From positions 1 to 49,426 of the forward strand of contig JAOUIL010000017.1 of assembly GCA_029883975.1 (NCBI GenBank): a stretch of 49,426 nt of DNA. Reading direction: 5' to 3'. The number at the start of each line of letters is the position of its first letter. Within the stretch, counting starts at the first letter, position 1. This stretch comes from Betaproteobacteria bacterium. GTDB lineage: Bacteria > Pseudomonadota > Gammaproteobacteria > Burkholderiales > SG8-39. This document shows positions 19,432 to 47,900 of the stretch, one piece after another. The notes under the pieces were generated by a model. The model did no database searches and was not told where the DNA came from. It saw only the letters and a program-made list of their open reading frames with translations. The position numbers were made by a program, and so were the translations under genes.

Positions 19432-19477
19432 AGATATCACTTTCAATAGGTTTTATAACCTATTGAAATAGATATCT
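19432..19477. repeat. Long AT-rich palindrome upstream of mraZ
   Basis: Two perfect 12-bp arms (TTTCAATAGGTT and its complement) flank TTAT; after a 2-bp mismatch on each side the pairing continues with 7-bp arms (AGATATC/GATATCT). The whole structure is 46 bp of very AT-rich DNA in a GC-rich setting, between the Ldh2-family gene and the mraZ promoter. It could be an operator for an unidentified regulator or a cruciform-forming element. It lacks the GC-rich stem of an intrinsic terminator. The rest of the 250-bp gap (19394-19643) holds the mraZ promoter and leader. Confidence 0.7.
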
Positions 19478-19541: not shown

Positions 19542-19570
19542 TTGACCTCGCCTCGCCTTTCTCCTAGAGT
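19542..19570 (+). promoter_or_regulatory. Promoter of the dcw (division and cell wall) cluster
   Basis: TTGACC (19542-19547) and TAGAGT (19565-19570) are separated by exactly 17 nt, a good sigma-70-type match, about 75 bp before the mraZ start. Transcription should begin near 19577 and run into the cluster. Confidence 0.7.
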
Positions 19571-19605
19571 GGGAAAAGGTAGAAAAAAGTGGCGGACAAG
19601 GGGGG
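19569..19605 (+). promoter_or_regulatory. Possible MraZ-binding repeats
   Basis: MraZ represses its own operon by binding direct GTGGGR repeats with 5-nt spacers just after the promoter. Here GTGGGA (19569), GTGGCG (19589) and GGGGGG (19600) lie at the right place; only the last two have the standard 11-bp step, so the match is imperfect. Confidence 0.4.
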
Positions 19606-20099: not shown

Positions 20100-21083
20100 A
20101 TGAGCGCGCGCACTGCCATGCACCGCGCCGTCCTGGCCGCCGAGGCGATCGCAGCGCTCTCGATCCGGCCGGAGGGTACGTATGTCGACGGCACCTTCGG
20201 TCGCGGCGGGCACAGCCGGCTGATCCTCGAGCGCCTGGGGCCGCGCGGGCGGCTCATCGCGCTCGACCGCGACCCGCAAGCCGTGGCAGCGGCGCGCGAG
20301 ATCGCGGATGCGCGCTTTTCCATCACGCATGCGCCTTTCAGCAGGCTGTCGGCGGTGCTCGACGCGCAGGCCGTGACGCTCGTGCAGGGAATGCTGTTCG
20401 ACCTGGGCGTGTCTTCGCCGCAGCTGGACGATGCGCAGCGCGGCTTCTCCTTCCGCGGCGAAGGCCCGCTCGATATGCGCATGGACCCTTCGCAGGGGAC
20501 GAGCGCCGCCGACTGGCTGGCGAGCGCACAAGAAAACCAGATCAGAGAGGTCATCGGGGGGTATGGGGAAGAACGGTTTGCTAAACAGATTGCAGCGGCG
20601 ATTGTTGCTGCTCGCCGGGTCGCGCCCATCCGCACGACCCGCCAACTTGCCGATCTCGTGGGTGCGGCGGTCCGCACACGGGAGCCGGGCCAGGATCCGG
20701 CGACGCGCACCTTTCAAGCTCTACGGATTCTCGTCAATCGGGAGCTTGAGGAAGTGTCGCTGATGCTGCCGCAGGCGATCGAGCGCCTCGCCCCCGGGGG
20801 GCGGCTGGCGGTGATCGCCTTCCACTCGCTGGAGGACCGCCTGGTGAAGCGCTCCCTGCAGGCCTGCGCGCGCCCGGCGCTGCCACGGGATTTGCCGCTG
20901 CGCGCCAGCGAGTTGCCACAAGCGCTGCTCAGAATGGTCGGCAAGCCGGTCCGCCCCGCGAGCGCCGAGACCGCGGCCAACCCGCGCGCGCGCAGCGCTG
21001 TGCTGCGTGTCGCCGAGCGCACCGACGCCCCCTTTGACCCGACCTTGATCCACCGAATCGAGCCCGACGCGTGGCGCCCCTGA
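20100..21083 (+). CDS. rsmH: 16S rRNA (cytosine(1402)-N(4))-methyltransferase RsmH
   Basis: A 327-aa SAM-dependent methyltransferase that modifies C1402 of 16S rRNA. The SAM site is at [16 protein letters not shown], followed by [10 protein letters not shown] and the conserved [20 protein letters not shown] and DMRMDP segments; [12 protein letters not shown] lies near the end. Length and motifs are complete, so it should be active. One stretch, about 20528-20755 (residues 144-219), uses many A/T-ending codons (28 of 74 by hand count), unlike the rest of the gene. The last residues (EPDAWRP) lie in a 77-bp sequence that is repeated directly downstream. Confidence 0.96.
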
Positions 21084-21211
21084 ACCGCCTCCTCCTCCTG
21101 GTTCACGCCGTCCGCGCGCTCGGGCTCGTCACCCTCGAGCCCGACACGTGGCGAAGCTGAACCTCCTCCTCCTCCTGGTTCTCGTCGTCTGCGCGCTCGG
21201 GCTCGTCACTT
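21058..21211 (+). repeat. 77-bp imperfect tandem duplication over the rsmH/ftsL junction
   Basis: Copy 1 (21058-21134) and copy 2 (21135-21211) align without gaps, with 10 mismatches in 77 bases by hand count. Each copy holds an rsmH-like tail (EPD-x-W) followed by an ftsL-like start (GTGGCG). Real rsmH ends in copy 1; real ftsL begins in copy 2. Confidence 0.9.
21071..21160 (+). other. 29-codon chimeric mini-ORF created by the duplication
   Basis: From the GTG in copy 1 the frame reads [20 protein letters not shown], matching the start of FtsL, and then runs into copy 2 as TLEPDTWRS and stop, matching the end of RsmH. Its start overlaps the rsmH stop and its stop overlaps the true ftsL start, so ribosomes could pass through it to reach ftsL. 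Whether it is translated is unknown. Confidence 0.5.
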
Positions 21212-21420
21212 CGCAGCACAAGGCGCGCAAGCTGTTCTCCGAGCTGGAACGCGCCGAGGCGCGCGCGCGGGAGCTGGACGTCGAGTACGGCAAGCTGCAG
21301 CTCGAGGCGAGCACCTGGGGCCTGCACGCGCGCGTCGAGCGCGTCGCCACCGGCACGCTCGGCATGCGCGCACCCGACGCGCGCCGCGTGCGCGTGGTCA
21401 ACCTGGCCGAGGGCCGATGA
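21148..21420 (+). CDS. ftsL: Cell division protein FtsL
   Basis: A 90-aa bitopic membrane protein: short cytoplasmic N-terminus (MAKLN), one membrane segment (about residues 5-24) and a periplasmic coiled coil rich in Ala, Glu, Arg and Leu (about 28-65). FtsL joins FtsB and FtsQ and activates FtsWI septal peptidoglycan synthesis. The start is GTG at 21148, inside the second copy of the duplicated junction; no ATG is available before the membrane segment. Its stop overlaps the ftsI ATG (ATGA). Length is normal for betaproteobacteria. Confidence 0.92.
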   Translation: MAKLNLLLLLVLVVCALGLVTSQHKARKLFSELERAEARARELDVEYGKLQLEASTWGLHARVERVATGTLGMRAPDARRVRVVNLAEGR

Positions 21421-23141
21421 GCGCGGCGGCGCCGGCGCTGGTGCGCCTGCCGGTCTGGCGTGCGCGTTTCGTGCTCGCGGGATTCTTCGCGGCCTTCGCC
21501 GTCATCGCCGGGCGCTCGCTCTACCTGCAGGCCATGCATACCGACTTCCTGCAGGAAAAGGGCGAGGCGCGCTACAGCCGCGTGCTCACGGTGCCGGCCA
21601 CGCGCGGCCGCATCCTCGATCGCAACGGCGAGGCGCTCGCCGTCTCGACGCCGGTGCAATCCGTGTGGGCGATTCCCGGCGACGTGAGCGCCTCGCCGGC
21701 GCAACTGCGCCGCCTGGCGTCGCTGCTCGGCGCCGACGCGGGCGAGTTGCGCCGCAAGCTGGGCGACGCGTCGCGCGACTTCGTCTACCTGAAGCGCCAG
21801 ATCGCGCCCGAGACTGCCGAGCGCGTCGCGCAACTCGGGCTGGAAGGCATCTACCAGCATCCCGAGTACCGGCGCTACTACCCCGGGGGCGAAGTCACGG
21901 CGCACGTGGTCGGCTTCACGGGCGTGGACGAGGCGGGTCAGGAAGGCATGGAGCTCGCGTTCGAGGCGAGCTTGGGGGGTGTCCCGGGCAGCCGGCGCGT
22001 CATCAAGGACCGCCGCGGGCGCGTGGTCGAGGACATCGAGTCGATCCGCGCCGCGCAGGACGGCCGCGACCTCACGCTGTCGATCGACGGCAAGATCCAG
22101 AGCCTCGCCTACGCTGCGCTGAAGGAGGCGGTGCTCGCCCACCGCGCGACGGCGGGCGCGCTGGTGGCGCTCGACGTGCAGACCGGCGAGGTGCTGGCGC
22201 TCGCCAACGTCCCCTCGTTCAATCCCAACAATCGGGCGCGCCTCTCGGGCGCGCAGATCAGGAACCGCGCGCTCACCGACGTGTTCGAACCGGGCTCGAC
22301 GCTCAAGCCCTTCACCGTGGCGCTGGCGCTCGAGTCGGACCGCCTGTCGCCGGCGACGCGCGTGCAGATCGGCAATGGCGGCCTGCGCGTCGCGCAGCAC
22401 GTCATCCATGACCCGCACCCGGAGTCCGTGCTCACGGTCGCGCAGGTGATCCAGAAGTCCTCCAACGTCGGCGCCGCGCGCATCGCGCTCGCTCTCGGCC
22501 GCGAGGACATGTGGCGCCTGTTCCAGCGCGCCGGCTTCGGCGCCCCGCCACAGCTCGGCTTCCCCGGCGAGGCGGCGGGCAGGCTGCGCCCGGCCGCGAC
22601 CTGGCGTCCGATCGAGCAGGCGACCATGGCCTACGGGCACGGGATCTCGGTGAGCCTGATGCAGCTGGCGCGTGCCTACACCATGTTCGCGCGCGACGGC
22701 GAGCTCGTGCCGGTGACGCTGCAGAAATCGCCGCTGCCGGCGCCCGGCACGCGCGTGCTCTCGGCGCAGACGGCGCGCGAGATGCGCGCCATGCTCGAGC
22801 TCGCCGTGCAGCCCGGCGGCACCGCGCCGCGCGCGCGCATCATGGGCTGGCGCGTGGCGGGCAAGACCGGCACCGCGCACAAGCAGGAGAACGGCGGCTA
22901 CGCCGCCGACAGGTACATCGCCTCCTTCGTCGGCCTGGCGCCGGTGAGCGCGCCGCGCATCGTAGTGGCGGTCATGATCGACGAGCCGGCCGGCGGCCAG
23001 TACTACGGCGGCGTGGTCGCGGCGCCGGTGTTCGCGCAGGTGGCGCGCGGCGCGCTGCGAGCGCTCGGCGTGCCCTACGACGCCCCGCTCGAGCCGCTGC
23101 CGCTGCCGGGCGCGCACGAGGAAGCGCGGGAAAGCACGTGA
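21417..23141 (+). CDS. ftsI: Peptidoglycan D,D-transpeptidase FtsI (PBP3)
   Basis: A 574-aa class B penicillin-binding protein with one N-terminal membrane anchor (about residues 15-37), a pedestal domain starting RGRILDRNGEALAVST, and the transpeptidase domain. The three active-site motifs are present: STLKPF with the nucleophilic serine, SSN in IQKSSNVGAA, and KTGTA in VAGKTGTAHK. It crosslinks septal peptidoglycan together with FtsW. It is directly followed by murE with a 7-bp gap. Confidence 0.97.
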   Translation: MSAAAPALVRLPVWRARFVLAGFFAAFAVIAGRSLYLQAMHTDFLQEKGEARYSRVLTVPATRGRILDRNGEALAVSTPVQSVWAIPGDVSASPAQLRRLASLLGADAGELRRKLGDASRDFVYLKRQIAPETAERVAQLGLEGIYQHPEYRRYYPGGEVTAHVVGFTGVDEAGQEGMELAFEASLGGVPGSRRVIKDRRGRVVEDIESIRAAQDGRDLTLSIDGKIQSLAYAALKEAVLAHRATAGALVALDVQTGEVLALANVPSFNPNNRARLSGAQIRNRALTDVFEPGSTLKPFTVALALESDRLSPATRVQIGNGGLRVAQHVIHDPHPESVLTVAQVIQKSSNVGAARIALALGREDMWRLFQRAGFGAPPQLGFPGEAAGRLRPAATWRPIEQATMAYGHGISVSLMQLARAYTMFARDGELVPVTLQKSPLPAPGTRVLSAQTAREMRAMLELAVQPGGTAPRARIMGWRVAGKTGTAHKQENGGYAADRYIASFVGLAPVSAPRIVVAVMIDEPAGGQYYGGVVAAPVFAQVARGALRALGVPYDAPLEPLPLPGAHEEAREST

Positions 23142-46127: not shown

Positions 46128-47900
46128 ATGCGATTCGCCAATCTGAAGGTCGCCACCCGGCTCGCGCTGGGCTTCTCCATCGTGGTGCTCGGGGCGCTCG
46201 TCCTGGCTGCCGCCGGCTGGTACGGCATCCAGCGGCAGTCCGAGGTCACCTCGGTGGCGCTCGACCGCGACATGGAGTTCGCCCGCTCGGTGGCCAAGAT
46301 GCGCACCAGCGTGCAGATGATGCGGCGCTTCGAGAAGGAAATGTTGCTTGGCGTCGGCAATCCGGAGGCCCTGCAGGAGGCGCGCAAGAACCATGGCACG
46401 AGCCGCGGGGACATCGACGAGCTGCTCGCGACTACTCATATCAATGCGACGTCGGACGAGGAGCGCGACCGCCTGGACCAGCTGGCGTCCATGCTGCAGA
46501 ACTACGACGGCGGCATCGAGACCGTGTACGCGCTGATCACGCAGAACATCCTCACCACGCCCGAGCAGGCGCACAAGAAGGTCGAGGAGTTCAACAGCGT
46601 GATCCGCGAGACGGAAACGGTCATGGACAGCTTGTACGCGGGGGCCAACAAGCGCATCGAGTCGGTCAAGCCGGAGCTCGCCCGGATCCAGAACGAGGTG
46701 GTGCTCACCCTGCTGATCGTCGCGGCGGCGGTGCTGGCGAGCGCGCTGGTGGTGAGCGTGCTCACGTCGCGCTCGATCGCCGGTCCCGTCGCCATGGCGG
46801 TACGTGTCGCGGAGTCGCTGGCCAAGGGCGACCTCGCCGTGAGGGTCGAGCCGCGCTCCAAAGACGAGATCGGGCGCCTGATGTTCGCGCTGCGCGACAC
46901 GGTGCGCCAGTTGGCGACGATCGTCGGACGCATCAAGACCTCGAGCGACATGGTGGCCACGGCCTCGCGCGAGATCGCTCAGGCCAATACCGACTTGTCG
47001 GCGCGTACCGAGCGCCAGGCGAGCGCGCTGGAGGAGACATCCTCCTCTATGGAGGAGATGACGGCGACAGTCGGGCAGAACGCGCAGAATGCGGAGAAGG
47101 CGAACGAGCTCGCCGCCCAGGCCTCGAGCGTGGCCACCCGCGGTGGCGACGTCGTGCGCGCCGCGGTGAGCACGATGAACGGCATCACCGAGTCCTCGAG
47201 GAAGATCGCCGACATCACGAGCGTGATCGACGGCATCGCATTCCAGACCAACATCCTGGCGCTCAATGCTGCGGTCGAGGCGGCGCGCGCGGGCGAGCAG
47301 GGACGGGGCTTCGCCGTGGTGGCCTCTGAAGTCAGGAGTCTCGCGCAGCGCTCCGCGGCGGCTGCCAAGGAGATCAAGCAGCTGATCAACGAGTCGGTGT
47401 CCAAGGTGGACGCCGGCTCGCGCCAGGTGAACGACGCCGGGCGCACGATGGACGAGATTGTCGACTCGGTCTCCAAGGTGAGCAGCCTCATCGCCGAGAT
47501 CACGGCAGCGAGCCGAGAGCAGGCCCAGGGCATCGCGCAGGTGAGCGAGACGGTGACGCAGCTGGAGAAGGTGACTCAGCAGAATGCCGCCATGGTGGAG
47601 GAAGCGAGCGCCGCCGCTGGCAGCCTCGAGGACCAGTCCAGGTCGCTGGGCGACGCGGTGTCCGCATTCCGCCTCGCGAGCGATGCGCAAACCGGTGCAA
47701 CGCATCGCCCTGCGGCGGAGCCCGCGCAGGGCCAGCCGCAAGCGCCGGCGCTTGCGCGCGACGACGCGGCGGGCAAGGCCCGTGCAGGCGAAGCGCAGCG
47801 GCGCCTGGAGGCCGCCCGAGCGGCCCTGCAGGCGCCTGCGCCCAAGGCGTCCAAGCGGCGTGGCGACGGCGAAACCGAAGAAGAGTGGCGCGAAATCTAG
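46128..47900 (+). CDS. Methyl-accepting chemotaxis protein
   Basis: A 590-aa membrane chemoreceptor: first membrane segment about 10-31, periplasmic four-helix sensor about 32-187, second segment about 188-212, HAMP domain about 213-265 and a long cytoplasmic signalling coil. The CheA/CheW-contact tip [17 protein letters not shown] (from about 368) is intact. The tail is an alanine/proline/arginine-rich linker ending EEEWREI, which may be a variant of the CheR-docking pentapeptide. A GGGAGG ribosome-binding site precedes the ATG. It lies between cheW and cheR, so they likely form one signalling unit; no cheA is in the window. The ligand is unknown. Confidence 0.95.

Follow-up and report, generated by a model that had tools for sequence, protein, structure and literature searches.

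A conserved hairpin predicted across the ftsL start is tandemly duplicated in one betaproteobacterial lineage, where a hybrid open reading frame may serve as a translation relay

How is a cell division gene translated when the gene junction at which it starts has been doubled? The question is raised by a 49,426-nt stretch from the genome of an uncultured Betaproteobacteria bacterium (contig JAOUIL010000017.1; the window hereafter), in which the gene order is mraZ, rsmH, ftsL, ftsI and a 77-bp unit carrying the end of rsmH and the start of ftsL is present twice (Table 1). ftsL is essential in model bacteria. The answer that we favour, at a probability of roughly 0.52, is that a conserved hairpin at the junction gates the translation of ftsL, and that in the lineage of the window's genome (G000) this hairpin was tandemly duplicated with a hybrid ORF between the two genes acting as a relay.

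Table 1. Coordinates of the genes, repeat copies and predicted hairpins at the duplicated junction
Feature	Position in the window	Strand	Evidence or property
rsmH (mraW), 16S rRNA m4C1402 methyltransferase	20100..21083	+	TIGR00006 E 4.9e-105, PF01795; last codons within copy 1
ftsL, cell division protein, GTG start	21148..21420	+	TIGR02209 E 9.2e-25, PF04999
ftsI (PBP3), overlapping the ftsL end	21417..23141	+	PF00905, PF03717
Copy 1 of the 77-nt unit: live rsmH end, dead ftsL start	21058..21134	+	
Copy 2 of the 77-nt unit: dead rsmH tail, live ftsL start	21135..21211	+	
Hybrid ORF, 29 codons, FtsL-like start and RsmH-like end; proposed translation relay	21071..21160	+	13-nt overlaps, computed need for a relay
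Hairpin of copy 1, arms A1 and B1, GTG 21071 in the stem	21059..21128	+	-40.7 kcal/mol; model R1 72.4 bits
Hairpin of copy 2, arms A2 and B2, ftsL GTG 21148 in the stem	21136..21205	+	-34.6 kcal/mol; model R1 99.5 bits
Compact inter-copy hairpin B1-A2, 9 bp, 7-nt loop	21120..21144	+	minimum-energy fold of 21040-21230, z -5.15

Alignment of the two copies revealed that they are ungapped and identical at 67 of 77 positions; the last two columns differ, so that the matching part is 75 nt long (67/75). No other tandem row in the window came close: TRF scored this array at 248 and each of the remaining four at 67 or less. A tandem duplication had been claimed in an earlier, sequence-only reading of this DNA, and the claim is borne out, as is its assignment of the true rsmH end to copy 1 and of the true ftsL start to copy 2, which agrees with the TIGR00006 and TIGR02209 matches. 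The same reading described a hybrid frame that starts like FtsL and ends like RsmH and that overlaps both genes at their bare stop and start points; the composition of the frame was correct, but the overlap is 13 nt with rsmH and 13 nt with ftsL. Its further guess that the arrangement adjusts ftsL translation was reasonable for one based on reading frames alone, and a use of the hybrid frame and the duplication for this purpose is plausible. It overlooked that the duplicated stretch makes up a conserved predicted hairpin whose stem holds the start codon of ftsL.

The named relatives closest in RsmH are mostly metagenome-assembled genomes titled Betaproteobacteria or Burkholderiales bacterium. 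A BLAST search with the junction DNA gave a match in 58 of 61 genomes, the window's own included. The two match pieces overlapped by 76 nt in each of the same-genus relatives G001, G002 and G003, which therefore carry one unit each, 76 nt long as against 77 nt in the window. Direct reading of 18 relatives indicated one rsmH/ftsL junction in all 18 and a 13-nt overlap of the two genes in 17, the exception being locus L014 of G015, in which the genes do not overlap. No direct repeat of at least 25 nt was found at the junction of the seven relatives checked for it, and G000 alone among 98 family genomes had two places above 50 bits for the unit's covariance model (41 best candidates scored per genome). 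The comparison of the junction across related genomes, which had been suggested as a check, thus showed a single unit in relatives and a doubling confined to the G000 lineage. The idea that relatives might hold an unrelated spacer of equal length fails for those of the same genus, as their genes overlap without a spacer. The 77-bp duplication is very probably real and lineage-specific.

Comparison of each copy with the G003 unit over 76 nt revealed seven differences in copy 1, all at unit positions 20-56 and including three adjacent ones within the last two rsmH codons, where the last residue has turned from S to P. Copy 2 showed two differences, one in the dead rsmH tail and one, synonymous, at its end. 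Substitutions accordingly fell mostly at dead sites (8/70 dead versus 1/82 live, Fisher p 0.009, with the adjacent triple counted as dead; 6/68 versus 1/82, p 0.034, with the triple taken as one event). Read as an FtsL start, copy 1 carries L to R, L to H and C to R changes in the membrane segment, plus K to P, and none of the other 26 FtsL starts of the genera that carry the hairpin shares them. The array could in principle be an assembly artefact, an end-to-end fusion of contigs from two strains that both had a normal junction, and the draft genome does consist of 175 contigs. Such a chimera needs a working junction in each copy, yet the FtsL start of copy 1 has broken membrane residues, and the two copies, with 10 sites differing, offer no exact 77-mer to link them; on these two grounds we judged a chimeric assembly very unlikely. 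The substitution pattern fits a true duplication, not very recent, and not a strain chimera.

The divergence between the copies at dead sites ranged from 0.083 (5/64 sites) to 0.130 (8/67 sites; JC), and the four-fold divergence between G000 and G003 was 0.354 over rsmH and ftsI, or about 0.18 per lineage. The former lies below the latter, so the duplication is younger than the G000/G003 split without being a fresh polymorphism, which upholds the view of the sequence-only reading that it is not recent. If dead sites are taken as neutral, the duplication falls on the G000 branch, around its middle or earlier.

Folding of the unit indicated that the whole of it forms one predicted RNA hairpin. 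Arm A, CGAGCCCGACGC, lies in the rsmH tail and pairs with a stretch of ftsL codons 13-20 that ends in TCGGGCTCG; the predicted stem holds the ftsL GTG and the next codon, and there are an inner GAACC/GGTTC stem and a pyrimidine loop. The loop TCCTCCTCCTCCT (window 21164-21176), which we take to resemble an anti-Shine-Dalgarno sequence, has third positions conserved as strongly as the stem in the window and in relatives. The hairpin of copy 2 is weakened by a G-to-A change (-34.6 versus -40.0 kcal/mol in the G003 unit), and the compact B1-A2 hairpin was created by the duplication. The hairpin of copy 1 was matched in stability by 6.6, 7.3 and 3.4% of random substitution placements, figures suggestive of selection retaining it.

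The conservation of the hairpin was analysed in a family set of 98 genomes, 83 of which gave a match to RsmH; 80 junctions were fetched and all 80 were scored. The hairpin genera are g1, g2, g4, g7, g16 and g24 (27 aligned genomes), and the other genera comprise 53 genomes. A fold across the ftsL start was predicted in 26 of the 27 hairpin-genus genomes, and the mean fold z was -3.45 over all 27 versus +0.20 in the 53 others. A Shine-Dalgarno-like motif at the ftsL start, by a crude four-base test, was found in none of the 27 versus 23 of the 53. When ftsL was recoded synonymously, leaving its protein and the DNA upstream unchanged, the mean z was -2.24 in the hairpin genera versus +0.05 in the others (Mann-Whitney 9e-11, a value that ignores shared ancestry); none of 150 recodings was as stable in 7 of the 27 genomes, and some were in the remainder. 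Between genera, four-fold identity in the hairpin group reached 0.869 in ftsL codons 2-21 versus 0.635 in codons 22-85, and 0.916 in the loop region of codons 2-11, while the control genera g14, g15, g17 and g21 gave 0.537 and 0.539 for the two segments. The rsmH tail just upstream was variable and arm A had few varying columns in an alignment anchored on arm A. In the alignment of 26 sequences, pairing was preserved in 99.0% of 598 cells, with six one-sided, pair-keeping types of change and none of 23 pairs changed on both sides, so that the structure rests on energy and conservation.

The one genome of the 27 predicted to be without the hairpin is G101 (L146, G101:C79), with z +0.42 and no Shine-Dalgarno-like motif; its start region, read apart from the rsmH frame, still looks like a 13-nt overlap. 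The overlap is likewise kept without a hairpin in G017 (g15), G019 (g17) and G023 (g21), where the hairpin is therefore dispensable. Among the 53 genomes of other genera, G015 (genus g13; L154, G015:C362) has a different inverted repeat of about 35 nt across its ftsL start (z -6.99). This repeat is apparently independent, and its arm resembles part of the ftsL coding sequence in inverted form; the ftsL ATG starts 117 nt past the rsmH stop there, which makes direct reinitiation unlikely as its role.

Model R1 found one place of at least 98 bits in 28 of the 98 family genomes, 26 of which had trained the model; the two added were G100 and G028, the latter from a seventh genus, g26. Second places reached 72.4 bits in G000 and at most 27 bits in the others of these 28. 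A mobile or repeated hairpin was considered and is unlikely, there being one place per genome except in G000 (41 best candidates per genome, strict filters). Among 300 genomes of the order (13 candidates scored per genome), 26 matched at E 0.01 or better, seven of them in the hairpin's family, and the best match outside the family scored 32.5 bits. Among 80 loci of RsmH relatives, the ftsL start could be scored in 77 and had z below -3 in seven; all seven appear to belong to family genomes already counted and add nothing independent. In a short two-gene tree the grouping of the hairpin genera was poorly supported (0.26 at their most recent common ancestor), with g17 (two genomes) and g18 (one) falling inside.

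A structure so conserved could act on the mRNA itself, as an RNase III structure, as a block to exonucleases, or as the source of a stable RNA cut out of the message, of which the ftsL decRNA of E. coli is an example. The excerpted text of PMC6156199 places E. coli decRNAs in the same operon, from mraZ, ftsL, ftsI and murE, and the loop is conserved like the stem (0.916 in codons 2-11), which gating alone does not need; gating alone is thus insufficient to explain the loop, which points to a further or different role. In each of the six genera, however, the start codon of ftsL lies within the stem, and a search of 20500-21700 against Rfam gave no family match up to E 1. We consider an mRNA role in place of gating improbable.

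Accessibility of the ftsL start was computed from fold energies as the cost of freeing positions -12 to +15. With nothing bound, the mean cost was 24.2 kcal/mol in the hairpin genera versus 14.5 in the others, and 300 random window positions gave 16.9 kcal/mol (sd 4.2); the hairpin-genus mean alone stands out from these, the 18.7 of G003 being within their range. A ribosome placed at the rsmH stop lowered the computed cost in G003 from 18.7 to 2.1 kcal/mol. In the window the computed cost was 15.5 kcal/mol unbound; it rose to 28.0 when a ribosome was placed at the rsmH stop and fell to 2.3 when one was placed at the hybrid stop. Two results weigh against the gate. The window's own ftsL start had only z -2.22 over the stretch from -30 to +75, which takes in sequence of copy 1, and its stability was equalled by 94 of 150 synonymous recodings. 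Strong folds also occur elsewhere and are not rare, with z below -3 in 7 of 470 window tiles, one of them at the junction.

Other structured or repeated segments were noted in the window. Upstream of mraZ, an AT-rich palindrome in a GC-rich stretch (19432-19477; arms of 7 and 12 bp, 4-nt loop; z -5.64 as RNA) could be a terminator or an operator, and TGGGA, TAGAA and TGGCG occur at 10-nt spacing at 19570-19594 and resemble MraZ boxes. The segments 46516-46620 (z -4.7) and 47356-47460 (z -4.1) are strongly folded, and both lie inside an ORF (46128-47900) whose product looks like a methyl-accepting chemotaxis protein.

The folds and accessibilities suggest how the ancestral junction would work. 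Arm A is in the rsmH tail and arm B in ftsL codons 13-20, so that the GTG is buried in the stem; as it also lacks a Shine-Dalgarno motif, initiation there by free 30S subunits would be poor. A ribosome terminating at the rsmH TGA, which ends 13 nt into ftsL, would hold the stem open and could reinitiate at the GTG. The hairpin thus probably lets FtsL be made only by ribosomes that are just finishing rsmH.

Following the duplication, 64 nt of folded RNA separate the rsmH stop from the true ftsL start, a gap that in the absence of the hybrid ORF is probably too far for reinitiation; in reporters of native E. coli gene pairs, reinitiation was almost lost at +38 nt, according to the excerpts of PMC10666635. 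This loss, together with the computed freeing of the ftsL start by a ribosome at the hybrid stop and not by one at the rsmH stop, leads to the relay model. A ribosome leaving rsmH would reinitiate at the GTG at 21071, read the 29 hybrid codons, stop at 21160 and reinitiate at the ftsL GTG at 21148. The copy 2 TGA follows the copy 1 GTG at a distance of 77 + 10 = 87 nt, or 29 codons. It is in frame only for unit lengths of 2 modulo 3, and the one extra base of the 77-nt unit over the 76 nt of the same-genus relatives thus matters for the relay to end at the right stop. The hybrid peptide would be a by-product with a decayed membrane segment. The relay also predicts a lower yield of FtsL per RsmH, perhaps partly offset by the weaker hairpin of copy 2. 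Blocking, coupling, relay and this likely lower yield are what we infer; the sequences themselves show the duplication, its restriction to one lineage, the placement of the substitutions and, in prediction, a conserved hairpin that buries the start. A stronger version, in which an undescribed, family-specific RNA gate is doubled in series by a selfish-looking relay minigene so that FtsL output goes approximately as the square of reinitiation efficiency, seems doubtful to us.

The duplication may also simply be tolerated, ftsL initiating well enough alone or through unfolding of the RNA, with an incidental hybrid ORF and drifting copies. Drift predicts the concentration of substitutions in the dead halves, the doubling occurs in only one of the 98 family genomes (G000), and the loss of hydropathy in the hybrid membrane segment, which has a probability of 0.0015 under uniform mutation, is unremarkable (0.21) once the T changes are taken as given. 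Phage f1 VII/IX is still coupled at +62 nt while its hairpin is partly covered, and by this example from the excerpted PMC12548453 unfolding of the RNA could replace a relay. The same excerpts state that longer overlaps couple less well, a 13-nt overlap not being the best spacing, and that structure just after the stop was correlated with lower coupling in one screen. Against neutrality, ftsL of the window has no Shine-Dalgarno-like motif and its modelled start stays folded when the rsmH stop is occupied by a ribosome, and the essentiality of ftsL means that some route to its start must persist. We regard neutral tolerance as less likely than the gate and relay.

If the gate and relay are true, a conserved RNA gate acts on a core cell-division gene outside model bacteria, ftsL output is tied to the translation of a ribosome-modifying enzyme, and a duplicated junction gives a working relay only at a length of 2 modulo 3. 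The locus is a natural experiment in which a stop/start cassette was doubled without loss of the downstream gene, and it provides a testable rule, unit length modulo 3 and presence of a relay ORF, for other duplicated gene junctions.

Among the papers listed by a literature search, none had a title or abstract opening on an ftsL start hairpin. Three known systems resemble the junction in part. Termination-reinitiation at short overlaps, where the stop of one gene lies just past the start of the next (excerpts of PMC10666635), is similar in layout, but the overlap here is 13 nt instead of the common 1, 4 or 8 and the stop/start cassette is duplicated. The decRNAs of the enterobacterial mraZ-rsmH-ftsL-ftsI-murE operon are likewise structured coding RNAs, ftsL included, and the enterobacterial ftsI decRNA is conserved at synonymous sites in the part of PMC6156199 that describes it, as are ftsL codons 2-21 here; in contrast, the structure described here, a predicted fold likened to them by description, spans the rsmH/ftsL junction and the start codon. 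Closest are the hairpin-silenced, translationally coupled genes, an established class exemplified in the excerpts of PMC12548453 by phage f1 VII/IX and MS2 coat/lysis, with close or overlapping genes, a folded downstream start and no evident independent ribosome site. Unlike these, the ftsL hairpin belongs to a core division gene, is conserved in several genera within a single family and has its arm B inside the downstream coding sequence, and the window carries two putative gates in series with a 29-codon relay ORF; the conserved start hairpin doubled with its relay would thus be a new form of hairpin-gated translational coupling.
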